Origin: Oscillospiraceae bacterium
Lineage (GTDB): Bacteria > Bacillota > Clostridia > Oscillospirales > Oscillospiraceae
DNA length: 64,000 nucleotides
Direction of reading: 5' to 3'
Assembly (NCBI GenBank): GCA_015067995.1
Contig: SVLJ01000010.1
Location: 1-64,000 of the forward strand
Shown: piece after piece, positions 16,744-41,054 of the stretch
Position numbering within the stretch: position 1 is the first letter of the stretch
Layout: each line of letters starts with the position of its first letter
Translations under genes and position numbers: made by a program
The notes under the pieces: model-generated
What the model saw: only the letters and a program-made list of their open reading frames with translations
What the model was told of the DNA's origin: nothing
Databases searched by the model: none

Positions 16744-18411
16744 ATGGCAGAAAAACTGAAAATCATCCCCCTTGGCGGTCTGGACGAGGTGGGCAAGAAC
16801 ATGACCGTATTCGAGCACGGCGGCGAGACCATCGTGGTGGACTGCGGCATGGGCTTCCCCGGCGACGACATGTACGGCATCGATTCCATCATCCCCGACG
16901 TCAGCTATCTGGTGAAGAACAAGGCCCGTATCCGCGGTCTGTTCATCACCCATGGTCACGAGGATCACATCGGTGCCATCCCCTACGTGCTCAAGCAGGT
17001 GAACATCCCCATCTACTGCACCCGCTTCACCGCCGGTCTCATCCGGCTGAAGCTGGAGGAGCACGGCCTCACCAAGTCCACAAAGCTCACCACCGTGGAG
17101 CCCGGTGAAACGGTGAAGGTGGGCAGCAAGTTTCAGGTGGAATTCATCCACGTGAACCATTCCATCGCCGACTCCGTGGCGCTGGCCATCCACACCCGGA
17201 TGGGCACCATTGTCCACACCGGCGACTTCAAGATCGACTCCACCCCCATTGACGGCGACGTCATCGATCTGGCCCGCTTCGGCGAGCTGGGCAAGGCGGG
17301 CGTTCTGGCGCTGCTGGCAGACTCCACCAACGTGGAGCGTCCCGGCTATACCCCCAGCGAAAGTCTGGTGGGCAAGACCTTCATGCGTCAGTTCTCCGGC
17401 TGCAGCGAGCGCATCATCGTCACCACCTTCGCCTCCAACGTCCACCGCATCCAGCAGGTGCTGGACGCTGCCGCCGCCTGTGGCCGGAAGGTGGCCGTCA
17501 CCGGCCGTTCCATGGAGAACATGATGAAGGTCTCCACGGAGCTGGGCTACATGAAGGTGCCCAAGGGCGTCCTCACGGATCTCAACAAGCTGAAGGGTCT
17601 GCCCGCCAACAAGCAGGTCATCGTCACCACCGGCTCTCAGGGCGAGGAAATGAGCGCCCTGTACCGCATGGCCTTCTCCACCCACAAGCAGGTGGAGATC
17701 GGCGCCGGGGACAAGGTCATCATCTCCGCTTCCGCCATCCCCGGCAACGAGGTGACGGTGGGCCGTGTCATCAACGAACTGTTCCGCAAGGGCGTCAACG
17801 TGGTCTATGACCGGGCAGACATGCTCCATGTCTCCGGCCACGCCTGTCAGGAGGAGCTGAAGATCATCCACGCGCTGGTGAAGCCCCGGTTCTTCATTCC
17901 CGTCCACGGCGAGCAGCGGATGCTGCAGATCCACTGCCAGCTGGCCCAGCAGATGGGTATGCCCCGCAACCATGTGGCCATCGCCGAAAACGGCAGCGTC
18001 ATCGAGCTGACCGCCAAGACCATAAAGCTGGGCGGCACCGTCCCCGCCGGCGAGGTGTATGTGGACGGCTCCGGTGTGGGCGATGTGGGCGCGGTGGTCA
18101 TGCGCGACCGCAAGCGTCTGGCAGAGGACGGCATGGTGGTGGTGGTTCTGCCCCTGTCCGACTATGACGGCACCCTCCTCAGCACGCCGGAGATCATCAC
18201 CCGCGGCTTCATCTATGTGAAGGAGTCCGAGGAGATCATGATTGAGCTGCAGAACGTGGCGCTGGAAGCCGTCATCGCCGCCACCGGCCGCCGCAAGCGC
18301 AGCCGGGACGACAACGAGATCAAGGGCGCCGTCAAGAGCGCCGTCAGCAACTACCTCTACAAAATGACCCGCCGCAACCCCATGGTGATCCCCGTGATTA
18401 CAAAGGTCTGA
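16744..18411 (+). CDS. rnj: ribonuclease J
   Basis: 555 residues, the usual length. The metallo-beta-lactamase motif HGHEDH is at 70-75, followed by the beta-CASP domain (DSTNVERPGYTPSE, TTGSQGEE, SGHA) and the C-terminal dimerisation domain. RNase J is the 5'-3' exonuclease and endonuclease that drives RNA turnover and rRNA maturation in Firmicutes. AAAAGGAG stands seven bases before the ATG. It is monocistronic with a strong terminator. Only one paralogue is in the window, so J1 or J2 cannot be assigned. Confidence 0.95.
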   Translation: MAEKLKIIPLGGLDEVGKNMTVFEHGGETIVVDCGMGFPGDDMYGIDSIIPDVSYLVKNKARIRGLFITHGHEDHIGAIPYVLKQVNIPIYCTRFTAGLIRLKLEEHGLTKSTKLTTVEPGETVKVGSKFQVEFIHVNHSIADSVALAIHTRMGTIVHTGDFKIDSTPIDGDVIDLARFGELGKAGVLALLADSTNVERPGYTPSESLVGKTFMRQFSGCSERIIVTTFASNVHRIQQVLDAAAACGRKVAVTGRSMENMMKVSTELGYMKVPKGVLTDLNKLKGLPANKQVIVTTGSQGEEMSALYRMAFSTHKQVEIGAGDKVIISASAIPGNEVTVGRVINELFRKGVNVVYDRADMLHVSGHACQEELKIIHALVKPRFFIPVHGEQRMLQIHCQLAQQMGMPRNHVAIAENGSVIELTAKTIKLGGTVPAGEVYVDGSGVGDVGAVVMRDRKRLAEDGMVVVVLPLSDYDGTLLSTPEIITRGFIYVKESEEIMIELQNVALEAVIAATGRRKRSRDDNEIKGAVKSAVSNYLYKMTRRNPMVIPVITKV

Positions 18412-18436
18412 GGCCGCTTTCCACAGCAGAGACAGC

Positions 18437-18483
18437 GTGCGTTGGAATTTCCGGTTTTTCCGGAAATTCCAACGCACTTTTTT
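18437..18483 (+). terminator. strong rho-independent terminator of rnj
   Basis: A perfect 18-bp stem with GTGCGTTGG at its base and a T5 loop, followed by T6. Confidence 0.9.
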
Positions 18484-18535
18484 ATTATGAAAACCGTCTT
18501 TTTTGTTCTCTATACATATTGTACAATAGTTTTTA

Positions 18536-18545
18536 CCCCCCCCCC
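18536..18545. repeat. homopolymeric C10 tract upstream of the envelope locus
   Basis: Ten consecutive C bases lie about 30 bases upstream of the -35 box of the giant surface protein gene. Long mononucleotide runs are prone to slippage, so this could modulate promoter spacing or an upstream contact; that is inference. Confidence 0.6.
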
Positions 18546-18574
18546 ACTTTATCACATTAATGCATTGTACCCTG

Positions 18575-18603
18575 TTGCTTTTTTCAGTTGTCTGTGCTAC
18601 AAT
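18575..18603 (+). promoter_or_regulatory. promoter of the glycine-rich surface locus
   Basis: TTGCTT, 17 bases, TACAAT. The leader to the start codon is about 105 bases. Confidence 0.65.
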
Positions 18604-18712
18604 ATATCAACTATAAAATGGCCTCGTATAATCAATTCCACATCGTGTGCTGCCCACCGGAATTCCCGGTGATGTGCCGGCATACCATGCATTGCAAACA
18701 GAGGGTTTTCAG

Positions 18713-21700
18713 ATGAAGCAAATGTTCAAACGCAGCCTGTCGCTGATCATGTCGGCGGCACTCCTCTTACAGATGATTATATTCCCTTCCCGTGCGTCTG
18801 CTGCGGCGGCCGCGGAAGTCGCCTCTGACGGCAGCATCGTCTTTGGCGGGACCGTGCTGACCCACCACCAGACCCTGCGGGACGATAACGGCGCGTTCAC
18901 CTTCACGATGCAGGTGAACTCTGCCCTTGTCCGTGAGGATGCCAACACCGCCCACGACGCCTCCCGCAACCACTACTTCACCGCGCCCATCACCGGTGAC
19001 TATCTGGTGCAGGTGTGGGGCGGCAAGGGCGGCGCAGGCACCGACTATGTCAGTCCCGGCGGCAAGGGCGGCGCAGGCGGCTACGTGTACGGCGTGGTAC
19101 ATCTGACCGCCGGTGAGACCCTGTACTACCAGCTGGGCGGCGACGGTCAGCAGACTGCCGCCACCGACGAGGGCGGCGGCATCAACGGCGACGGCGGCCA
19201 CCATGGTGACACCGGCAGTATGCTGGTGGGCGGCGGCGGCGGTTACTCCGTTGTCTACAAATTCGCCCCTCAGGAATTCGAGCGCAAATACACCGACGGC
19301 GCCGGTAATCAGACCTCGGAGATCTCTGACGAGGATCGCGCCACCAAGTACATCCTCATCGCCGGCGGCGGTGGCGGCGGCGGCGCAGGCAACGGCAACT
19401 CGCCCCTGCTGGGCATCACGGCCACCGGCACCGCGGACGGCGGCGCAGGCGGCTCCGTGGGCAGCACCTCCGGTGTGCTCTCCGGCAGCGGCTACGATGT
19501 GGAGGGCACCTTCTTCGCCGGTGAGAACGGCAAGTCCAGCGGCCCCTCCACCAACTATGTGGGCCGCGGCGCAACCAACGTCCCCGGTGCCATCGAAGGC
19601 ACCGCGCTGGGCAGCCTGATCGGCCTTTTCAACGGCAAGGAGCCCAACGACTGGCGCGGCACCAACAATGCCAACTATTCCGGCGGCGGCGGTGGTTCGG
19701 GCAACCTCCGCGGCGGCGCAGGCGGCGCGGGCTTCTGCGGCGGCTCCGGCGGCGTCCAGTCCGGTCTGCTGAGCCCCACCTACGTGGGCGGTGGCGGCGG
19801 CGGCTCCTCCTTCATCGCCAGCACCGTCACCTACACCGGTATTGACAGCATCCTTGCCGCCTCCGGCAAGACCGGCAACCCCAGCAGCACCGGCGGTGGT
19901 GTGTATATCTGCGCACTGGAGAGCGACGAGCTGTCCTATCTCAGCGACCTGACCCTCACCGCGCAGATCTCCCCCTACTTCACCGTGGCTCCCCAGCCCA
20001 GTACCTATTGTACCGTCAGCTTCGACCCCGCCACCAACGGCCTCACCGTTTCCGGCGTCGACCTGATCAGCAATCCCTATCTCCGTCTGGAGCTTCAGTT
20101 TACCCCCGTCAGCGGCTTTGCCGGCGGCAACGACATTCCCCTGTGGAACGGTGGCTTCACCTGCACCTCCAACGTGGACAGCAGTACCGTTCTGCTGCCG
20201 GTTTCCGACCAGTGCGGCTATGTCAATCTGCCGCTGACCGGCTTTACGGCCAAGGGACAGAGCATTGACAGCGCTCCCGCCGATGAGCGCCCCGTTTCCG
20301 CGCTGAAGGGCTCCAACTATGAGGGCTGGGCAGGCAAGTGGATGTACGCCGGCATCCAGAACATCTCCGACTACACGGTGGATCCCACCGGCGATCCCAC
20401 CTACAACGCAGGCTCTCAGACAGTTGCTCCCGTGGAGACCACCTATTATCCCATTTCCGTCACAGTGACCCCCAAACCCAATCTGCTGGCGGTGGTGGGC
20501 ACCCAGGCGGTGGAAAAAATCTACCACGGCAAGTCTGCCATCAAGATCGGCGCAAACAGCGGAACCCTCAACGGTAACGCCGTGACTTACAGCAAGCATC
20601 TCTCCTACAACAGCGAAGAGCAGCGCTACGAGCTGAAGCTCAACACCTCCATCACAACCGACCCCGCAGCAGCGGCATCCAATGAATCCACACCATTCAC
20701 AGACACTACCGCCGTGGTCAATGGTGTAATCAGCTATGACAGCCATCTCATCCCCGCCTCCGGTTACTATTACATCCAGGCCTGGGGCGCTTCCGGCGGC
20801 ACAGGCGGCACAGGCCAGCTTGGTGGCAACGGCGGCAGCGGTGCAAACGGCGGCTACGTAGCCGGCTGGAAATACTTTGAGCAAGGTGAAACCGTATACT
20901 TCGTTGTAGGTTCCAAGGGCGCTAATGCTAACCAACAGTCCGGCGGCTCCGGCGGTGGCGCCTCCGGCATCAGCAGTACCAACACCACAAACAACAGCGG
21001 CTTCTACCTCGTCGCCGGTGGTGGCGGCGGCGGTGCCTGCGGCGCTTGGGGGCAGACCGGTAACAGTGCTGCGGAAAACAACAGCCAAACTTCCGGCGAG
21101 GCAACGGTAGCCATCTCCGGCTATAATGGTGGAAACGGCTCCTATTCGATTCTCGGAGGTTCTGCTGGCGCATCCAAAGCAAGCTATCACAGCACCAATA
21201 TCATCGGTATCCAACCCACCGGCAAACCGGCACTGACCACCGAAGCACAGGCCATAATCAATACCCTCTCCTCCGACGAAAACACTGCCAATCCCAACGC
21301 AGCAAACGGCAACGGCGCGGTACGTTTCACCCTGATCCAGCAGGTCTACGAGGAGCAGGCCTCCATTGCAGACTACTTCATCACCGCCCAGCTTTCCGAT
21401 TACTTCGTGCTGAATGGTGCAGCAGCCAGCAACGTGGTGTTCACCGGTCTGGCGGAGGGCAATGCCCCCACCGTCACCTACACCAGCATCGACGAACCCG
21501 GCGACAACGTCATCGCCATTTCCAACCTCGACCCCTATGTCACCGACACAGAGGCCGATGGTGAGCACGTTTTCTCCGCGGAATTCACCGTCACCCTCTA
21601 TCTCAACCCCCGTGACGGCTTCCTGGGCGGCAACGACGTTCCCCTACTGAAGCCGGGCGCGGATTCCATGCGGATGCAGTACCAGCAGGCAGACGCCGGC

Positions 21701-24196
21701 GGCACGCTGCAGACACTGGGCATTGCGGCCAATCCGGAGACGGACTATGCCAACGTGGTCATCAATCCCACCAACGGCTGGACAGATGCCGTCACGCCCA
21801 CCATTTACTCCACGGAGTCCAATCCCAAGACCATCACCGCCGGTGACACCGTGGCTCACAGCGAGCTGTACAACAAGGCGGCGCTGGAGACGAAAAAGAG
21901 CGAGCTGGAGGCGGCAGCCGACTGGCGCGACGACTTTGTGAACTTCACCTTCCACCTGATCAACCGCACCACCGAACTGGCGGAGAGCGACGATCCCCTG
22001 TACCCGCCCCACACCACCTATTACAACGTGGTGCTGGCACTGGAGCCCAAGGAGTCCTCCCCCAACGCGACATGCGTTGCCCCCCCGGTCACCGGCATCA
22101 CGGAGATCCGCGGGGAGACGCTGGTAAAGGTGCTGCCCCGGATCATCTATCAGCTGACCGATCTGGTAAACAGCGACAAGGTTGCTCTGGCCACCACCAA
22201 CGGCACCATCAAGGCGAATGTGGACTACACCGCCACTCTCTCCCCCGGGAAGGATTACGCCCTGCCCGGCGGCATTGCCGTGACCAAGCGCGAGGGCAGC
22301 AGCTCCGTCACCCTCACCGCCGGTACGGATTATACCTACAATGCCGGCACCGGCGTCATCTTCATCAGTGCGGCAGTCATCGGCTACAGCGAGATCACCA
22401 TCATTGCCACGGCGGAGAAAGCCACCTTCACCCTGAATTACATCTATCAAACCTCCCCCACCGGCGCACCCATTCAGGGCAAAGTGACCGGTCTCTGTCC
22501 CGGCGACTCTCTGTTGGCCACACTGCCTCATACCCACGCCCCCGCCAATTATGCGGGATATGAATTCCAGTGGAGCTGGGAATACGGTGACGGCTCGGAG
22601 CTGGAGCAGATGCCCGCCGCCGATGTGTGGGTCATGGGCAGCTACGTCCCCAGGGAATACACCCTCACCATCCACTACACCTATGCGGTGGGCGGCGGCA
22701 CAGCCGCACCTGACCATGTGGAGACCGTGAAGTACGGCAGTGCTTACTCAGTCACCTCTCCCACCATTTCCGGCTATATGCCGGATCAGGCCGTGGTGTC
22801 CGGCACCATGCCGGCCAATCATGTCACTGTCACCGTCACCTACACCGGCACTGCCAACCAGCTGAACATCCTCTACTTCAAGGAGCAGCCCGACGGTACG
22901 CTGGTGCAGTTTGACAGCTACCGTGACGACGATGTTGCCACCGGCACCGCCTACTCCGTCACCTCTCCCGCCGTGGACGGCTACACCGTGGAAAGCGGCA
23001 AGGAAGTCATCAGCGGCACCATGGTGACGGAGGGCGTCACCGCACAGGTGATCTACCGTCCCAACACCTTTGCTGTCACCATCGATCCCAACGGCGGCAG
23101 CTGCACCACTGCGGAGCTCACCGCGGTATACGACAATATTTACGGTTATGACCCGGAGGCCAGCGGATATACTACTGCAGGCGGCTATGCCGGTCTGACA
23201 GCGGCATACCGCTCCCTGCCCACTCCCGTCCGCATCGGCTTCGACTTTGAGGGCTGGTATCTGGACAAGGACGTCTGGGCACAGCCGGTGAAGGAGGACA
23301 CTTCCGTCTCCCTGACCGCCGGTCACACCCTGTACGCCAAGTGGAAGGGACAGACCTTCTCCTACACCATCAAGCACGTCTATGACAACGGCCTGCCCGT
23401 GAATGATGGTCATCTGGACTATACCAACACCGAAATGACGGTGGGCATGGACATCCCGCCCGCGGGTTATGATGCCATCCCCGTCATCGACACGTACACC
23501 GCTGACAAGGTCTATAAAAACCTCGAAGGCACCATGCCCGCTCAGAATGTGGTGGTGACCATTACCTACACCAGTAACTTCCGCCACATCACCATTCAGT
23601 ATCTCTACGCGAACAACGTAAAGGATGAGACTCTCCGCGGCAAGATGGCCCATGAACCTCACACCGGACAGGTGGAGATCGGCAAGGAATACAACGTTAC
23701 CAGCCCCATCATCCCCGGTTATACCCCCTCTGAGGCAGAGGTCACCGTCATCATGGGCACCACGGATGTAGAGATCACCGTGTTCTACTACGATGACAAC
23801 TCTACGCCGGTGGTCGCTGTCACTGTCACGTGGGGCTCCCTGTCCTTCCGGTACACCCACGGCGAATGGGACCCCCAGACCCACACCTACAGCACGGAAC
23901 CCGTCTATCCGGTGACCGCCGGCACCAACTATGTCATGGTTACCAACAACGCCGAGTCTGAGATCAATGTCAATGCATCCTTCGCCTACGCGGCCAACAG
24001 CGGCTTTGAGGGTCTGACCCACTACTTCACTGCCACAGACAACAGAAATGCCGCCACCATCACCCAATCCGGCATGCTGGCTCCCGGCGGCGTGGCAGCC
24101 AAGGCCTTCCTCTGGCTGCAGGGCACGCTGCCCACGAATATGACCGGCAATCAAATCTCCGGTGTCTGCACCGTTACCATAACAGGAGGTGGTTGA
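18713..24196 (+). CDS. giant secreted protein: two glycine-rich domains, MucBP/InlB-type repeats and a C-terminal shared module
   Basis: 1827 residues. A signal peptide spans 1-32 (cleavage near SRASA). Two blocks of about 500 residues follow. Each has a glycine-rich lectin-like domain (about 95-400 and 685-875, with WGGKGG/WGASGG and long GGGGG runs) and a beta-rich domain containing GF(A/L)GGND(I/V)PL (469-477 and 970-978). Residues 1235-1700 hold tandem repeats of MucBP type (YSVTSPTISGY, YNVTSPIIPGY) and one InlB B-type repeat (GFDFEGWYLD...LYAKWKG). The last ~127 residues match the two small secreted proteins downstream. There is no LPXTG or SLH motif. ATG 18713 has GAGGG seven bases upstream. 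Adhesion to host or mucus glycans is the likely role, by inference from the repeats. Confidence 0.85.
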   Translation: MKQMFKRSLSLIMSAALLLQMIIFPSRASAAAAAEVASDGSIVFGGTVLTHHQTLRDDNGAFTFTMQVNSALVREDANTAHDASRNHYFTAPITGDYLVQVWGGKGGAGTDYVSPGGKGGAGGYVYGVVHLTAGETLYYQLGGDGQQTAATDEGGGINGDGGHHGDTGSMLVGGGGGYSVVYKFAPQEFERKYTDGAGNQTSEISDEDRATKYILIAGGGGGGGAGNGNSPLLGITATGTADGGAGGSVGSTSGVLSGSGYDVEGTFFAGENGKSSGPSTNYVGRGATNVPGAIEGTALGSLIGLFNGKEPNDWRGTNNANYSGGGGGSGNLRGGAGGAGFCGGSGGVQSGLLSPTYVGGGGGGSSFIASTVTYTGIDSILAASGKTGNPSSTGGGVYICALESDELSYLSDLTLTAQISPYFTVAPQPSTYCTVSFDPATNGLTVSGVDLISNPYLRLELQFTPVSGFAGGNDIPLWNGGFTCTSNVDSSTVLLPVSDQCGYVNLPLTGFTAKGQSIDSAPADERPVSALKGSNYEGWAGKWMYAGIQNISDYTVDPTGDPTYNAGSQTVAPVETTYYPISVTVTPKPNLLAVVGTQAVEKIYHGKSAIKIGANSGTLNGNAVTYSKHLSYNSEEQRYELKLNTSITTDPAAAASNESTPFTDTTAVVNGVISYDSHLIPASGYYYIQAWGASGGTGGTGQLGGNGGSGANGGYVAGWKYFEQGETVYFVVGSKGANANQQSGGSGGGASGISSTNTTNNSGFYLVAGGGGGGACGAWGQTGNSAAENNSQTSGEATVAISGYNGGNGSYSILGGSAGASKASYHSTNIIGIQPTGKPALTTEAQAIINTLSSDENTANPNAANGNGAVRFTLIQQVYEEQASIADYFITAQLSDYFVLNGAAASNVVFTGLAEGNAPTVTYTSIDEPGDNVIAISNLDPYVTDTEADGEHVFSAEFTVTLYLNPRDGFLGGNDVPLLKPGADSMRMQYQQADAGGTLQTLGIAANPETDYANVVINPTNGWTDAVTPTIYSTESNPKTITAGDTVAHSELYNKAALETKKSELEAAADWRDDFVNFTFHLINRTTELAESDDPLYPPHTTYYNVVLALEPKESSPNATCVAPPVTGITEIRGETLVKVLPRIIYQLTDLVNSDKVALATTNGTIKANVDYTATLSPGKDYALPGGIAVTKREGSSSVTLTAGTDYTYNAGTGVIFISAAVIGYSEITIIATAEKATFTLNYIYQTSPTGAPIQGKVTGLCPGDSLLATLPHTHAPANYAGYEFQWSWEYGDGSELEQMPAADVWVMGSYVPREYTLTIHYTYAVGGGTAAPDHVETVKYGSAYSVTSPTISGYMPDQAVVSGTMPANHVTVTVTYTGTANQLNILYFKEQPDGTLVQFDSYRDDDVATGTAYSVTSPAVDGYTVESGKEVISGTMVTEGVTAQVIYRPNTFAVTIDPNGGSCTTAELTAVYDNIYGYDPEASGYTTAGGYAGLTAAYRSLPTPVRIGFDFEGWYLDKDVWAQPVKEDTSVSLTAGHTLYAKWKGQTFSYTIKHVYDNGLPVNDGHLDYTNTEMTVGMDIPPAGYDAIPVIDTYTADKVYKNLEGTMPAQNVVVTITYTSNFRHITIQYLYANNVKDETLRGKMAHEPHTGQVEIGKEYNVTSPIIPGYTPSEAEVTVIMGTTDVEITVFYYDDNSTPVVAVTVTWGSLSFRYTHGEWDPQTHTYSTEPVYPVTAGTNYVMVTNNAESEINVNASFAYAANSGFEGLTHYFTATDNRNAATITQSGMLAPGGVAAKAFLWLQGTLPTNMTGNQISGVCTVTITGGG

Positions 24197-24200
24197 TTTG
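24184..24200 (+). promoter_or_regulatory. ribosome site in the giant gene's last codons, setting a TTG start
   Basis: AGGAGG (24184-24189) lies within the final codons of the giant gene and is followed after eight bases by TTG at 24198. Translation of the membrane protein is thus probably coupled to the giant protein. Confidence 0.7.
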
Positions 24201-25004
24201 CAGCACAGCTTTATGATGATGGACGATTACGACCAGAAGGTAAAGATCGAAAAGGAAAACATCCTCTGTTACTCCAAGAAGCAGCTGGATCGTCTTTATC
24301 CCAACGGCGATTATCACATCATCGGTGAAACCAAGAAGAAGAACAAGAAGGAGATCATTTCCCAGCTGCGGGTCCGCAAGCTCATGCTGGACATCTGTAA
24401 GCCGGATCAGCACAGCGGACTTCTGTACCGCCGGGCAGGCTATGTCCGGATCGGCGGCGATGATTTCGTCGCCCTGCTGGTACCCCGCTGGCCGTTCCTG
24501 CTGATTCTGCTGCTCCTGCTGGGCATCACCGGCATCCTGCTGAGCCTTCTGCTCAACGGCCCGGCGCCCTCCACACCCGTCAACCCCGATCACCCCCTGC
24601 CGCCGGAGGATGTGCTGTCCAAGCCCATGGAGGACGACACCACCGAAAAGGCAGACGTGCCGGAGGGCGGCGGTTCTCTGTCCATGATTTACACACTGGA
24701 CGCCAGACTGAGCCTCTCCACCGGCCAGATCGCCGTGTACTTCAAAAACCCCAACGCCTCCAGCCATAACGTAGCTCTGGAGCTCATCGTCATCTCCGGC
24801 GGCGAGGAATACGTCATCGCCCAGTCCGGTCTGGTGAAGGCGGGCTACGCTCTGGAAACGCTGGAGAAACTGGCAGGCTCCGCCTCCCTCAGCGAGGGCG
24901 TCTACACCGGCCTGTACCGGCTGCATTGCTATGACCCCGTTAGCGGTGAGCGGGCGCTGGTCTCCCCCGAGATCACCGATGTCAAGATCACCGTGATGAA
25001 TTGA
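24198..25004 (+). CDS. single-pass membrane protein of the surface locus, with a cytosolic domain and an extracellular beta domain
   Basis: 268 residues from TTG 24198. Residues 1-97 are charged and probably cytosolic (KKQLDRLYPNGDYHIIG and a KKKNKK patch). Residues 98-119 form a leucine-rich transmembrane helix, then a Pro-rich linker and an extracellular domain of ~130 residues. That domain resembles the one at 26234-26728: IAVYFKNPN against AQVYFASNE, and SGLVKAGY against TGLLRPGE. I do not recognise the family. It is the second gene of the locus, one base after the giant gene. A role in tethering or assembling the secreted partners is plausible but inferred. Confidence 0.75.
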   Translation: MQHSFMMMDDYDQKVKIEKENILCYSKKQLDRLYPNGDYHIIGETKKKNKKEIISQLRVRKLMLDICKPDQHSGLLYRRAGYVRIGGDDFVALLVPRWPFLLILLLLLGITGILLSLLLNGPAPSTPVNPDHPLPPEDVLSKPMEDDTTEKADVPEGGGSLSMIYTLDARLSLSTGQIAVYFKNPNASSHNVALELIVISGGEEYVIAQSGLVKAGYALETLEKLAGSASLSEGVYTGLYRLHCYDPVSGERALVSPEITDVKITVMN

Positions 25005-25027
25005 GAATGAGAAGGGAGAAACACATC

Positions 25028-25555
25028 ATGAAAAAGCTTCTGGCATGCATCCTCGCACTGGCAATGGTCTGCGGTCTGGCCGTTACCGCATCCGCCGCAG
25101 GCGGCAACCTGACCATCAGCGCCAGCGGTACCCCCGCAGACATCGGCGACGTCACCGTCAACGTCACCGAGGGCGCCACCATCAACACCTACTATGTCAT
25201 CGTGGCATGGGAAGACCTGAGCTTCAGCTTCACCAAGAACGGTCAGCGCTGGGACGCTGAGCAGCACACCTATGTCAGCACCGGCAGCGGTGCCTTCACC
25301 GGCGGCACCACCGCGGACATCACCGTCACCAACAAGTCCGACGTGGACATCTCCGTCACCGCCAACGTCGCGGACAAGAGCGCTTCCGACGGCTTCAAGG
25401 CCACCCTCAACAAGACCACCTTTGATCTGGATTCCTATGTAGGCCTCGCCACCCCGGACACCAACACCTTCACCCTCACCGTCAGCACTGACGGCACTCC
25501 CGGCACAGGCACGGTGAATGTGGCCGACGTCAGCGTTACCATCACCAAGAAGTAA
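25028..25555 (+). CDS. small secreted protein carrying the module of the giant protein's C-terminus (1)
   Basis: 175 residues; signal peptide 1-23 (ends ASAAG). The mature part is one beta-rich domain: IVAWEDLSFSF, then RWDAEQHTYV, then ITVTNKSDVDISV, ending in VADVSVTITKK. The same order of motifs closes the giant protein and makes up the next gene, so the three share one module. It has no anchor of its own. AGGGAG lies nine bases before the ATG. Possible roles are a polymerising subunit or a wall-bound partner of the giant protein, both inferred. Confidence 0.8.
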   Translation: MKKLLACILALAMVCGLAVTASAAGGNLTISASGTPADIGDVTVNVTEGATINTYYVIVAWEDLSFSFTKNGQRWDAEQHTYVSTGSGAFTGGTTADITVTNKSDVDISVTANVADKSASDGFKATLNKTTFDLDSYVGLATPDTNTFTLTVSTDGTPGTGTVNVADVSVTITKK

Positions 25556-25659
25556 GCCTCCCCCACCCTCTGTTCATTATTGATCAGCCGTTCCGGCAAA
25601 GGCGGCGCGGCTGACCCGTACATAATGAAACCCATCACAAAGAAAGGAAGATACATACT
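25556..25659 (+). other. intergenic spacer with a stem-loop between the two small secreted genes
   Basis: TCAGCCG (25584-25590) pairs with CGGCTGA (25608-25614). There is no T run, so it may be an mRNA-processing or stability hairpin that lets the two proteins be made in different amounts. Confidence 0.35.
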
Positions 25660-26208
25660 ATGAAGAAGTTCGCATGTCTCGTTCTGGCTCTGGCCATGGT
25701 CCTCAGCCTGAGCATCTCCGCAAATGCTGTCTCTCCGATTGAGGCGTTGGATGGTACGGATGCCAAAGACGTCACCATCGTCGTTGACGGCTCTGGCGCA
25801 GAATCACCGCGCTATTATGTCACGGTAACTTGGAAGGATCTCAAGTTCACCTATAACAGCAACGGTGCCGGAAAAACATGGAATCCCGAGAATCATGAAT
25901 ATACATACACAACCGAACCCGGCTGGACTTCCACCGCGATCTCTGATGCTATTAAGGTTGACAACCACTCCAACGTGAGCGTGAAGGTCTCCACTGCCAA
26001 AGCTCTCGGTGCAGGTGCCAACGGAAAAGACTTCACCATTACGCCGACCGCCGACCAAACTCTGACCAGAGCAATTGCGGGCACCGGATTCAACACTGCC
26101 CCCTCTATCTCTTATGATATTGCTCTGACCAATGATGATGCCCCTACCGACCTGACCGCCGGTAACTATACACTGGGCACCGTCACCGTCACCATCACCG
26201 CTCCCTAA
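25660..26208 (+). CDS. small secreted protein carrying the module of the giant protein's C-terminus (2)
   Basis: 182 residues; signal peptide 1-23 (ends SANA). Core motifs VTVTWKDLKFTYN, TWNPENHEYTY, IKVDNHSNVSVKV and the end GTVTVTITAP parallel those of the preceding gene and of the giant protein's end. The coding sequence uses more A/T-ending codons than its neighbours, which hints at a different history or faster change. AAGGAAG precedes the ATG. Family unrecognised; the fold is probably an Ig-like beta sandwich. Confidence 0.8.
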   Translation: MKKFACLVLALAMVLSLSISANAVSPIEALDGTDAKDVTIVVDGSGAESPRYYVTVTWKDLKFTYNSNGAGKTWNPENHEYTYTTEPGWTSTAISDAIKVDNHSNVSVKVSTAKALGAGANGKDFTITPTADQTLTRAIAGTGFNTAPSISYDIALTNDDAPTDLTAGNYTLGTVTVTITAP

Positions 26209-26233
26209 CCTTTAACCATTACGGAGAACACCT

Positions 26234-26728
26234 ATGAGCAAACTGGAAAAACGAATCCTGCTGATATTCGGCATGATCGTGCTGGCCGTTGCAGCCGCCG
26301 TCCTGATCCGGTGGGGCGGAGAGCGAGATGTGATCGTCAACGATTTCATTCCGCCGTCCTTTGACTCCGCCGCCGTTTCCGGATTCCCGGAAGGCGTGGA
26401 CAAAACCATATACGGCACACTGATTCTTGCAGACGGGATCGCTGTTTCTCTCTATAGTGCCCCCACGGTCACAGACGGAGCAGCTCAGGTGTATTTCGCG
26501 TCCAATGAGATCAATACCGCCTGGGTGCGGCTGCGGCTTCTGGATGCGCAGGGTGCTCTCCTTGGCGAGACCGGCCTGCTTCGCCCCGGCGAATATGTGG
26601 AATCCCTGATTCTGCAGACCCAGCCGAAATCGGCGCAGGTCACGGCAAAGATCCTCACCTATGAGCCGGACACCTATTACAGCAAGGGTACGGCCACCGC
26701 GCAGCTGACGCTGCGCTTCGCGGACTGA
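26234..26728 (+). CDS. N-terminally anchored membrane protein with the extracellular beta domain
   Basis: 164 residues. A membrane anchor at about 7-25 is followed by an extracellular domain related to that of the 24198-25004 protein (AQVYFASNE, TGLLRPGEYVESL). It is the last gene of the locus, 25 bases after the second small secreted protein, with GGAG before the ATG and the common terminator behind. Two anchored proteins plus two small and one large secreted protein resemble WxL-type wall systems in layout, but no WxL, DUF916 or DUF3324 motif is seen. Confidence 0.72.
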   Translation: MSKLEKRILLIFGMIVLAVAAAVLIRWGGERDVIVNDFIPPSFDSAAVSGFPEGVDKTIYGTLILADGIAVSLYSAPTVTDGAAQVYFASNEINTAWVRLRLLDAQGALLGETGLLRPGEYVESLILQTQPKSAQVTAKILTYEPDTYYSKGTATAQLTLRFAD

Positions 26729-26752: not shown

Positions 26753-26797
26753 GCAAAAAAGGATGACCCGGTCGCCCGACCGGGTCATCCTTTTTGC
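26753..26797. terminator. bidirectional terminator closing the surface locus
   Basis: A GGATGACCCGGTC/GACCGGGTCATCC hairpin with A6 on one side and T5 on the other; it also serves the convergent XRE gene. Confidence 0.9.
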
Positions 26798-37799: not shown

Positions 37800-40700
37800 A
37801 TGAAAAAGAGAGTCGTATCCCTGCTTCTGTGCGTCATGCTGCTGGTAAGCGCCATGCCTGCTGCCGCCGCTGCCGCCGACAGCAAAGCAGGCTTCACCGA
37901 CATCACCGACAGTGAGACGGCTGAAGCCGCCAACGCCCTGCGGAGCATGGACGTGGTCTCCGGTACCACGGACACCACCTTCTCCCCCGAAAACCCATTG
38001 ACCAGGGCGCATGTCTGCAAAATGATCATCAGCGCCATGGGTCTGCAGAATCAGGTAGCCAGCTACGCCCGGAAGACCCTGTTTTCGGACGTTTCCCCCA
38101 CCTCCGTGTTTGCGGGGTACATCAATCTGGCGTATGACAGAGGGATTTTTCAGGGCTACGGCGACGGAACCTTCGGCCCTGGCAACCCCATCACCTACGG
38201 ACAGCTGGCCTCAGTGCTGCTGCGGATGCTGGGCTACACCTCCGGTGACATCGGCTCCGTCTGGCCCACGGACTATACCGCCTTCTGCGAAAGTCTGGAA
38301 CTCAACGGCAGTCTGGAGCTGACTCCCTACCAGACGCTGAACCGCGGGCAGGCCGCAATTCTGATCTACAATGCCCTGAAAGCGGATACCGCCTCCGGAA
38401 AGGCATATTACACCACCATCGGCACCGTTGCCTCTACCCAGATGGTGACCGTGCTGGATACGGACGCCCGCCAGAACAACATCACCGGCCTGCTGCGCTG
38501 CTATACAGTCTCCGGCAGCAGCGTTTCCGTGAAGCACTTCCGTCAGGCTAATCCCGTCCCCGCAGCCTTTGCGGGTTATTCCGGCATTCTGCTGCTGAAC
38601 AATGCCGGCAGAACGGTGGGCTTCCTCCCGGACGACTATGACAGCAGCGAGGGCATCCTGCAGGATACGGAATCGGACAGCATCACCATTTCCGGTGAGA
38701 CCCTGGACACCGCCTCCAACGCGGTGGTCATCGTGGGCGAGAGCGTATACAGCTGGAGCAGCACCGGCTACCTGCAGGGCAGCCGCTATGCGGGAAAAAC
38801 AATCCGGGTGTTCCGGGATGACATAGGCGACGTCACCTGCGTCTATATCTCGGTGGATGACGAAGCTCAGGCCCGGAAGCTGGCGGTAGCCTCCACTCAG
38901 ACCGGCACGATTCTGGATACAGATGCCGCCGACGGCGATGAGCAGCACCTCCTGATGGCCTATCTCCCTTCCGGCAGCACCGGCACAGTGAAATATTTTG
39001 AGCAGGCCGATGCCCTGTCTGCGGATGCCATGGGCAAGTCCGGTGACATCCTGCTGAACAGCGACGGCGACGTGGTGGGTTTCCGCCCGGACACCACCGG
39101 CAAACAGCTGACGCTGCTGGCCGCCGACGAGGACGAAATTTCTGACGGCAGCACGGTGTACGAACCGGCTGACAACGCCGTGGTCATCGTAGGCGAAAAG
39201 GTCTACAGCTGGAGCGGCTCCGGCTACCTGCAGGCCAACCGCCATCTGGGCAAGAGCGTCCGTCTGTTCACAGAGAGCGGCGACGTCACCTGCCTGTTCA
39301 TCCCGGTGGAGGACTCCGACGCCGAGGCAAAGCTGGCGGTAACCTCCACCCAGAACGTGATTCTTGTCAGCGCCGATACCGTCCGCGGCACATCTGCCGA
39401 TGAGCTGACGGCTTGTGTTATCAGCGGCAATGCCGCCTCCATTTCATACTATGACCGCAAAGCCGACTTCACCGGCTACGAGGGACAGCTGGGCAAGCTG
39501 CTGCTGAACAGGGACGGCGACGCCGTGGGCTTCATCCCCTCCACCCGGGAGAGCAGAGACATCACCGTGGCCTCCGCCAAACTATCCGGCATCGTGGACA
39601 GCAGCGGCGCTTCCCATCGCATTCCCGGCAGCGCCACGCTGATCGCAGGCGACACGGTGTATGTCTGGAAAGACAGCGGATATCTCCGACTGAGCAGTAA
39701 TTCCGGCAAAATGGCCCGCCTCTATTACGATGACGACGGCTCCGTGAGCTGTGTGCAGCTGCTCTCCGGCGGCACGGCTTCGGATACCGGGGCGATTCTG
39801 GCGGAAACCGTCACCGCCGCCGGTGAGCTGGTGCGGCGGCTGGGCATCAGCGGCGCATACAGCATCACCAAGAACGGTATGGCCGCATCTGCCGACGATC
39901 TGGCACGGTACGACATCGCCTACTTTGACGAAGCCACCCGCACGCTGCGCGCCTCGGACTATCAGTTCACCGGCTACTTGGAAGCCGCGTCCCCCAATGT
40001 GGCCGAGGCAGAGACCATCACCGTGGGCGGTCACGAATTCACCGTTCTGGATGCTGCGTGGGCGTCTCTGGACAACTACACGCTGGGCAGCCGCGTGACG
40101 CTGCTGCTTACCGACGATCTCAAGGTGGCCATGGCAACCAGCGACAGTAATATCGCTGCCGATATTCTGGGCGTTCTCGATTCCACCGGCAAATCCGTCA
40201 CCCTGCTGGGCAGCGGTCTCACTATGACCGCGGACACCGTTTCCGCCCAGGAGAATCTGTACGGCACCATCGTCCGGGTCACCGTTTCCAGAGATCAGCT
40301 GAACTGCTACCGCTACACCTCTTCCGGCAGCGTCTCTCTGAACATCCCTGCAGGCACGCTGGGCAGCTATCCTCTGGCTCCCAACTGCGCCATCTTCGAG
40401 CACACCAGCTCCGGCAGCTACGGCAGCCACGTTTACAGCCTGTCCGGCGAAAAGGGCAAGGCCTCCTATAACTTCGATGATCTCCTCTGGACGGACACTC
40501 TACCCGCCGTTTCCATCAGCGCATGGCACCTGAACTCCGCAGGCAAGGTGGATATGCTGCTGCTGAAGGACGTCACCGGCAACTGCTATGAATACGGCGA
40601 GGCCACCCGCTATACCGGCACCGACGGTGTCAACGTGGGCACCAGAGAGCTGGCCGCCTACAACGACGCGGTGACCGTCACCAATGCCGCCGGTGAAAGC

Positions 40701-41054
40701 GCCAAGCGGATCTGCCAGCTGTATGACGCCAGAACCGGTGCATGGCTGGGCGTCTCCTACGGCAACTACAACGCCAACAGCCATCGGGTGATCTCCCTGA
40801 AGGTGCTCACCGAAATCACCGATGTGGATACCCGGCAGTTCTTCCTGTCCGATGACCGCTGGTATGTGACCGCCGATGCGTCGGAGATCCCCGTCAGCGA
40901 TGCCGTACAGGTCTATGTGGAAGCCACCGACCGATGGCTCAGCGGCGAAACCGGCCTGAAAACCGCCATGGATATGGCGCAGGACATGACTGTGTACTAT
41001 GACCGTTCTGTCACCAACGGCGCACAGATCCGCGTCATCGTAGTTCACAAGTAA
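37800..41054 (+). CDS. S-layer homology domain surface protein with three tandem ~150-residue repeats
   Basis: 1084 residues. Signal peptide 1-26. SLH motifs follow: about 30-85 (LTRAHVCKMI), 95-146 (ITYGQLASVLLRMLGY) and a weaker third around 155-195 (LNRGQAAILIYNAL). SLH triplets bind pyruvylated secondary wall polymer. Residues about 211-665 form three tandem repeats, each with GxxGxxLLNxxGxxVGFxP and VVIVGExVYSWSxxGYLQ; about 420 residues without recognised domains close the protein. ATG 37800 has GAGG upstream. It is monocistronic, with a terminator after it. Role: surface-layer or wall protein; ligand unknown. Confidence 0.9.
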   Translation: MKKRVVSLLLCVMLLVSAMPAAAAAADSKAGFTDITDSETAEAANALRSMDVVSGTTDTTFSPENPLTRAHVCKMIISAMGLQNQVASYARKTLFSDVSPTSVFAGYINLAYDRGIFQGYGDGTFGPGNPITYGQLASVLLRMLGYTSGDIGSVWPTDYTAFCESLELNGSLELTPYQTLNRGQAAILIYNALKADTASGKAYYTTIGTVASTQMVTVLDTDARQNNITGLLRCYTVSGSSVSVKHFRQANPVPAAFAGYSGILLLNNAGRTVGFLPDDYDSSEGILQDTESDSITISGETLDTASNAVVIVGESVYSWSSTGYLQGSRYAGKTIRVFRDDIGDVTCVYISVDDEAQARKLAVASTQTGTILDTDAADGDEQHLLMAYLPSGSTGTVKYFEQADALSADAMGKSGDILLNSDGDVVGFRPDTTGKQLTLLAADEDEISDGSTVYEPADNAVVIVGEKVYSWSGSGYLQANRHLGKSVRLFTESGDVTCLFIPVEDSDAEAKLAVTSTQNVILVSADTVRGTSADELTACVISGNAASISYYDRKADFTGYEGQLGKLLLNRDGDAVGFIPSTRESRDITVASAKLSGIVDSSGASHRIPGSATLIAGDTVYVWKDSGYLRLSSNSGKMARLYYDDDGSVSCVQLLSGGTASDTGAILAETVTAAGELVRRLGISGAYSITKNGMAASADDLARYDIAYFDEATRTLRASDYQFTGYLEAASPNVAEAETITVGGHEFTVLDAAWASLDNYTLGSRVTLLLTDDLKVAMATSDSNIAADILGVLDSTGKSVTLLGSGLTMTADTVSAQENLYGTIVRVTVSRDQLNCYRYTSSGSVSLNIPAGTLGSYPLAPNCAIFEHTSSGSYGSHVYSLSGEKGKASYNFDDLLWTDTLPAVSISAWHLNSAGKVDMLLLKDVTGNCYEYGEATRYTGTDGVNVGTRELAAYNDAVTVTNAAGESAKRICQLYDARTGAWLGVSYGNYNANSHRVISLKVLTEITDVDTRQFFLSDDRWYVTADASEIPVSDAVQVYVEATDRWLSGETGLKTAMDMAQDMTVYYDRSVTNGAQIRVIVVHK

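Follow-up and report, generated by a model that had tools for sequence, protein, structure and literature searches.

A recurring operon of large and small secreted proteins that share one module, with two membrane-anchored partners

How could an operon assemble a secreted protein of 1827 residues outside the membrane when none of its products carries a recognisable sortase signal? The question is raised by five open reading frames (ORFs), all on the plus strand, at positions 18713-26728 of a 64,000-nucleotide stretch from an Oscillospiraceae bacterium (assembly GCA_015067995.1, contig SVLJ01000010.1, positions 1 to 64,000), hereafter called the window. They encode a giant secreted protein, two small secreted proteins (1 and 2) and two membrane-anchored proteins, here named anchors A and B. 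As stated in an initial annotation made from the sequence, the giant lacks the usual attachment domains: Pfam lists no SLH, LysM, LPXTG or WxL family for it at E values up to 5, a listing from which HMMER discards most matches above about 0.1, and no Pfam anchor match (LPXTG-like sorting signal) was obtained for any of the five proteins. NCBIfam gave a single sub-threshold sortase-dependent match at the N-terminus of the giant (residues 6-50, 17 bits against the 47 needed) and a sub-threshold match on anchor B (9.8 bits against 23.5). The same genome holds three sortases and 15 SLH matches outside the giant; a protein with two SLH matches at window positions 37800-41054 indicates that the organism also has SLH proteins.

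The main finding obtained in this work is that the last ~130 residues of the giant are homologous to the mature parts of both small secreted proteins, and that this shared module recurs elsewhere beside relatives of the two anchors. BLASTP E values for the three module pairs were 1e-7, 4e-9 and 3e-18, and the Smith-Waterman scores of 107, 135 and 147 stood far above the shuffled means of 35.6, 35.3 and 44.0 (sd 6.4, 6.4 and 7.6), no score being reached in 2000 shuffles for any pair. The motifs V-x-V-x-W-x-x-L-x-F, W, H-x-Y, V-x-N-x-S (as aligned) and V-T-I-T do not vary among the three aligned rows, which bears out the common module proposed initially. Neither the module nor the two anchor families matched Pfam or NCBIfam above cut-off; a PDB sequence search returned nothing, the best module match being a cohesin at E 0.46; viral contigs searched with the giant gave nothing, and no description of the module family was recognised in the literature searched. 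In the predicted structure of small protein 2 the module is all-beta (pLDDT 84.6). Among the best 50 Foldseek matches listed, 19 are titled pilus, fimbria or pilus-chaperone, including the top three, all of them weak and non-significant; the best pilin-fold match among those listed has an E of 0.042, and absence from such fold lists is evidence in neither direction.

Linkage to the anchors was apparent from the relatives. A first search with small protein 2 gave seven weak matches outside its own genome (E 6e-4 to 0.008, six genomes), mostly across the signal peptide or part of the module, and signal peptides were therefore removed from the queries. Scanning contigs with a degenerate pattern from the three-row alignment recovered 12 loci (L034-L045) in Oscillospiraceae, Lachnospiraceae, other Clostridia and one Coriobacteriia contig, and anchor relatives lie in most of them, though the search had used the module only. 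The counts that follow depend on profiles built from these 12 loci and the window (A3, module, 29 rows; A4, anchor B, 10 rows; A5, anchor A, 10 rows), and many loci come from metagenome assemblies. One further candidate, G336, had an E of 7.6e-4 with the three-row model, was not confirmed by the refined model and was dropped. At E 1e-5 the module profile A3 detected one of 86 genomes of the genus, namely the window's own, 16 of 295 in the order and 3 of 391 in a sample of the class (the own genome included in both); the families to which two distant carriers belong gave 2 of 13 and 1 of 6. Such a scattered occurrence suggests horizontal spread or frequent loss of the module.

Anchor genes adjoin module genes in 10 of the 19 regions found by the module alone (L106-L124). 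Taken together, 33 distinct loci were compared (the window, L034-L045, G430 and L106-L124), leaving out L125 and L049, which are the L034 and L040 loci; L036, L037 and L042 are close relatives, yet were counted apart, and L118 is included though in the locus table nothing in it reaches E 1e-5, its module having reached 1.8e-5 in an earlier region scan. Anchor A and/or B is present in 23 of the 33 (A in 20, B in 18, both in 15), as the initial annotation had expected of a module-profile search of Clostridia; the A gene of L106, seen in the locus table, was missed in the region scan because gene picking there discards ORFs that overlap. Most often a large gene is followed by anchor A, then by one to three small genes and anchor B, and the small gene can be present in up to three or more copies in a locus with a single A and a single B. 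In 13 loci anchor A comes straight after a module gene of the large or large-like kind, the large-like gene being a 311-aa ORF in L044 and a 222-aa ORF in L116; it precedes the large gene in L110, L114 and L122. Ten loci have neither anchor: L042, L117, L118 and L123 end at a contig end by the module gene, the sequence beyond the L108 module gene extends for only 147 bases, and within the fetched stretch no anchors were found in L109, L111, L112, L113 and L115. The genomes of L109 and L113 (G743 and G695) each have another locus, in which both anchors are present. One might argue from the module genes that stand alone in the fetched stretches of L108, L111 and L115, and from VIA and Foldseek matches that are weak and general, that the module is just a common beta-sandwich of neighbouring genes with no joint function. 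We consider this very improbable, since it is already disfavoured by the recurrent order, conserved across Clostridia and one Coriobacteriia contig with short gaps between genes and with clustered large and small module types.

This clustering was observed in a tree of 62 modules (17 large, 36 small and 9 middle-sized rows), limited to matches that have an E of 1e-6 or less and span at least 95 model positions. The large and small labels required 8 and 9 changes where shuffled labels required 15.0 and 20.1 (0 of 500), without forming clean clades; the nine middle-sized modules were not clustered (7 changes against 8.5, 47 of 500). The window's large module groups with the large one of L043 and with the 222-aa L116 ORF, labelled small (support 99/94), and both window small modules group with the small one of L043 (94/85), in a tree whose bootstraps are not settled and whose branches are long. 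From these placements, the roles of the large and the small modules seem to have stayed distinct for a long time. The C-terminal position noted initially holds for the window giant and is not universal, since tails of 58 to 422 residues follow the module in 11 of the 62 tree rows; tailed rows come from L036, L037, L042, L111, L108, L109, L113, L117 and L039 (two), plus L122 and L114 rows. Modules with a C-terminal extension of ~117-130 aa occur at L109:7302-8186, L113:681-1601 and L108:148-1089, in loci without anchors.

A second finding concerns the sequence in front of the module. The small proteins carry a conserved, strand-like arm N-terminal to it, left unfolded in the model of small protein 2, with an element resembling D-V-x-A-x-Y in which V, I or L occurs in 34 of 34 small proteins. 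Its score was 9.49, against -0.41 (sd 1.24) in shuffled sequences and with none of 200 shuffles as high; the test set had been reduced from 37 to 34 rows by removing near-copies from L036, and ORFs of L034 (217 aa), L107 (214 aa) and L116 (222 aa), which are not clean small proteins, had been excluded beforehand. Upstream of the module in large proteins, 16 of 18 score below 7 for the arm. An arm-like motif was also found after the signal peptide of a third class of protein, here called base proteins, which have no module (Fisher p 5e-9, nine proteins); in L121 the start of the base ORF was mis-set and its arm lies outside the segment tested. Base genes encode exported proteins homologous to one another and lie directly downstream of anchor B in 10 of the 18 B-bearing loci, that is, in 10 of 10 loci having a base. 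Nine of the ten end in an xTGD motif, a transmembrane (TM) segment and a basic tail, which we take to be a sortase sorting signal; the L040 copy is short and lacks the xTGD end. One scanned base protein matched Pfam Gram_pos_anchor at E 0.021, below cut-off, and two had no Pfam match above cut-off. No gene of this family is present in the window, the own genome as a whole not having been searched for it. The five genes first described do recur as a multi-gene surface system, and with a sortase-type wall protein added at these ten loci they do not amount to the complete one.

The base with an arm only, the small protein with arm and module and the large protein with a module only correspond to the polarity of a donor-strand pilus with a tip adhesin. 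We hypothesize that the operon assembles module proteins outside the membrane in this manner, in the window copy without a sortase signal. The module would be an Ig-like beta-sandwich, incomplete by hypothesis and with an open groove; the small protein, a module with a free N-terminal arm, would complete by strand exchange the sandwich of the next subunit, resulting in a chain or coat. The large protein, which has a C-terminal module and no free arm, is placed for that reason at the far end, where it may act as a tip adhesin, its module corresponding to the pilin domain of a chaperone-usher adhesin. Anchors A and B would be membrane-held partners that receive, stabilise or tether exported subunits, as chaperones or tethers. 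In many relatives the wall-linked protein with an arm and no module would form the base of the chain; in the window, with no base gene, the chain would rest on anchor B or on an unlinked protein. That the module serves surface display is well supported and, in our opinion, highly probable. Polymerisation is what we infer, and a donor-strand chain or coat is a tentative proposal whose chances fall somewhat short of even. More tentative again is a full Gram-positive counterpart of the chaperone-usher system, in which a wall-linked base would lend its arm to a row of small donor-strand subunits, with a giant adhesin or, in certain genomes, a cohesin protein as the cap, and with two membrane chaperones aiding assembly; the cohesin cap would dock enzymes, and the membrane chaperones would replace the periplasmic chaperone and the usher. 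The initial annotation had offered the module as wall anchor or polymerisation unit; both stay candidates, and the arm evidence leans to the latter. The arm makes polymerisation directly testable with two small recombinant proteins.

Support for display comes from the portability of the module, which in other loci is fused to proteins with cohesin, phosphoesterase domains or GLUG repeats. Only three of the module proteins scanned have a cohesin match, which exceeds the Pfam cut-off for the whole protein in L112 (E 9e-9) and L119 (E 5e-6) and stays below it in L044 (E 0.005). Anchoring scaffoldins of cellulosomes combine a cohesin with an anchoring domain in this way, and by analogy the module may occupy in the fusions found here the place where an SLH domain or sortase signal would stand; the cohesin-module fusion is the best evidence for a role of the module in surface attachment. 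Weak dockerin matches, both below cut-off, were obtained for a 2494-aa neighbour in L044 (E 2e-4) and a 1423-aa neighbour in L112 (E 0.023). At L112:6821-12103 and L044:1-8417 the cohesin-module protein thus adjoins a very large protein with a sub-threshold dockerin, possibly an anchoring scaffoldin arrangement in which the module replaces SLH. Phosphoesterase domains accompany the module in L106, and GLUG repeats do so in L036 and L042 and, below cut-off, in L121. The large proteins of L035 and L045 had no Pfam match at E 0.01, and the L043 giant is similar to that of the window, whose residues 3-1567 and 1647-1826 align with it (best stretch E 2e-174).

These fusions to cohesin and enzymes would suit any wall-binding domain, and it has to be considered whether the ligand of the module is peptidoglycan or a secondary wall polymer, with no fibre being formed, the small proteins carpeting the wall, the large protein being displayed among them and the TM proteins stabilising both as WxLIP does. 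The locus layout matches that of WxL clusters as far as it is given in the part of PMC10599100 available. No WxL sequence relationship was found, however, and wall binding would need neither a conserved free arm in the small subunits nor wall proteins that have the arm and lack the module; we therefore regard a wall-binding platform as rather unlikely, and retain the donor-strand chain or coat as the working proposal.

The anchors were said initially to resemble each other. Their pairwise likeness is weak (BLASTP E 0.19; 12 of 2000 shuffles as high), and it is the family profiles that place A and B in one family (hhalign probability 98.3, E 1e-14). Each has a sole TM segment N-terminal to the ectodomain, at residues 92-126 of 271 in A and 4-29 of 164 in B; the ectodomain fold, like the chaperone role, is putative. 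Anchor A likely starts at a TTG directly downstream of AGGAGG, as read by eye, and its ~90 N-terminal residues would be cytoplasmic. In the window and L043, anchor A has a common N-terminal region before the TM segment (DYDxx...CYSKxxLxxLYP; window 24198-24480), absent or not clearly common in the other eight rows of the alignment. Long forms of anchor A, of ~490-530 aa with an extended N-terminal part, occur at L110:539-2044, L114:8699-10213, L122:10722-12317 and L038:7572-9035; that of L038 has a sub-threshold GLUG match (E 0.047), and that of L110 none. The anchor B profile matched 9 of the 391 class-sample genomes, two of them module carriers and seven others with no module in the fetched stretch. 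In five of these seven the anchor adjoins another family of small exported proteins, marked by a Y-x-V-x-I-P motif (the 'IP' family), and the pair resembles a second, related two-part system; its scanned members had no Pfam match above cut-off, and the 'IP' profile gave a weak WxL match (probability 54) that lies in part over the signal peptide. From such neighbours, the anchor family may be a general partner of small exported beta-proteins in Clostridia. Homology of the module to the anchors, the 'IP' family or the base family was also considered and was unsupported by hhalign, the base family giving a short arm-to-arm alignment at probability 0.7, not significant.

Two homologous single-TM proteins with different neighbours, A by the large gene and B by the last small one, together with the five 'IP' loci, would also be compatible with a discrete membrane-tethered complex in which A and B each hold one module protein as a small fixed adhesin or receptor, with no polymer or wall coat. 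We consider this improbable: the repeated small copies for each A and B and the wall-type protein of ten loci suggest more than a 1:1 pairing.

The features of the locus are collected in Table 1. Of the one promoter and one terminator described initially, a hairpin closing the operon was found, and the promoter is a candidate read by eye, the strict scan having given no plus-strand site within 18478-18713. A second terminator-like hairpin lies upstream of the operon (18437-18477). The gene at 16744-18411 precedes the operon and resembles RNase J by eye, no family search having been made; at L113:681-4096 two module genes also lie near an RNase J-like ORF, as the operon does at window positions 16744-18713, which may reflect a favoured site or chance. 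Rfam gave nothing above gathering score at the locus and only four tRNAs in the whole window.

Table 1. Positions of the operon features in the window, and of related anchor genes in other loci
Feature	Position	Strand	Content or basis
Candidate promoter	~18575..18603	+	TTGCTT-17-TACAAT, TGC before second hexamer; by eye, not in strict scan
Large module protein	18713..24196	+	1827 aa: signal peptide, two glycine-rich (ALK_LTK_GRD) stretches, MucBP/Muc_B2 and Listeria-Bacteroides repeats, C-terminal module
Module, large type	23789..24193	+	Giant residues ~1693-1827; alignment, tree
Anchor A	24198..25004	+	N-terminal ~90 aa, one TM segment, anchor-family ectodomain
Small module protein 1	25028..25555	+	175 aa: signal peptide, arm, module
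Arm of small protein 1 (GDVTVNV)	25097..25183	+	N-terminal, candidate donor strand; arm test
Small module protein 2	25660..26208	+	182 aa: signal peptide, arm, module; structure predicted
Arm of small protein 2 (KDVTIVV)	25723..25812	+	N-terminal, candidate donor strand; block pLDDT 53-71, no strand assigned
Anchor B	26234..26728	+	164 aa: N-terminal TM segment, PPxFDxxA linker, anchor-family ectodomain
Terminator-like inverted repeat closing operon	26756..26795	.	Listed on minus strand; repeat symmetrical
Anchor-family gene beside 'IP' family	L066:5804-6937, L068:6821-7929, L070:6582-9141, L071:6421-7607, L067:1525-3005		No module

Several known systems can be compared with this operon. In chaperone-usher pili the adhesin has a C-terminal pilin domain and no donor arm, the rod subunits have arm and domain, and the chaperones are separate proteins. 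The logic of subunit types is alike here, and pilins stand high in the weak fold list; no sequence relationship was found, however, strand exchange in the present system is hypothetical and its chaperones would be membrane-anchored. To our knowledge no usher is to be expected in a clostridial host, and none was searched for.

Beta-sandwich fibres are also known in Gram-positive bacteria, where TasA assembles by donor-strand exchange with a helper protein (PMC9674648, PMC13082335, PMC10151520; each source available in part), strand exchange in TasA being reported in PMC9674648 and PMC10151520. TapA and WxLIP have been reported or proposed, in the accessible parts of PMC10151520 and PMC10599100, to hold or hand over subunits. 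The likeness of TasA/TapA and CalY/CapP of Bacillus to our operon is that of a Gram-positive beta-sandwich fibre with a helper, but the partners differ and no camelysin/TasA (Peptidase_M73) Pfam match was listed for the giant or the small proteins at E values up to 5. We know of no large domain-fused subunits with the same module in TasA/CalY systems.

The closest layout is that of WxL clusters, which comprise a small domain-only protein, a large protein with the domain at its C-terminus and a TM partner, a strand of the partner being predicted by AlphaFold2 to complete the WxL sandwich (PMC10599100, in the part available). The WxL/WxLIP (DUF916-DUF3324) systems of Lactobacillales and Bacillales thus share the arrangement of small protein, large protein and membrane partner. 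The difference lies in the domains: WxL (PF13731), WxLIP_PGBD and WxLIP_HBD are not listed for the five proteins (Pfam, E up to 5), hhalign of the module to an alignment of two WxL proteins gave a probability of 0.2 in what is a weak test, and the own genome has no WxL match. Anchors A and B have no DUF916/DUF3324 match and carry their TM segment at the N-terminus, whereas in WxLIP it is C-terminal; moreover, the partners here form two families and some loci add the wall-type base protein. The initial description of a WxL-like layout without WxL motifs is thus supported, the domains being not detectably WxL or WxLIP.

Cellulosome anchoring scaffoldins resemble the L044 and L112 proteins in placing a cohesin on a surface-attachment unit, there beside a large protein with a weak dockerin match, but the attachment unit would be the module instead of SLH or a sortase signal. 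Recurring in Clostridia and one Coriobacteriia contig, this surface operon of module and anchor families unnamed in Pfam and NCBIfam would add, beside SLH, sortase and WxL, a further monoderm route to display very large adhesins or, in certain genomes, cohesins.
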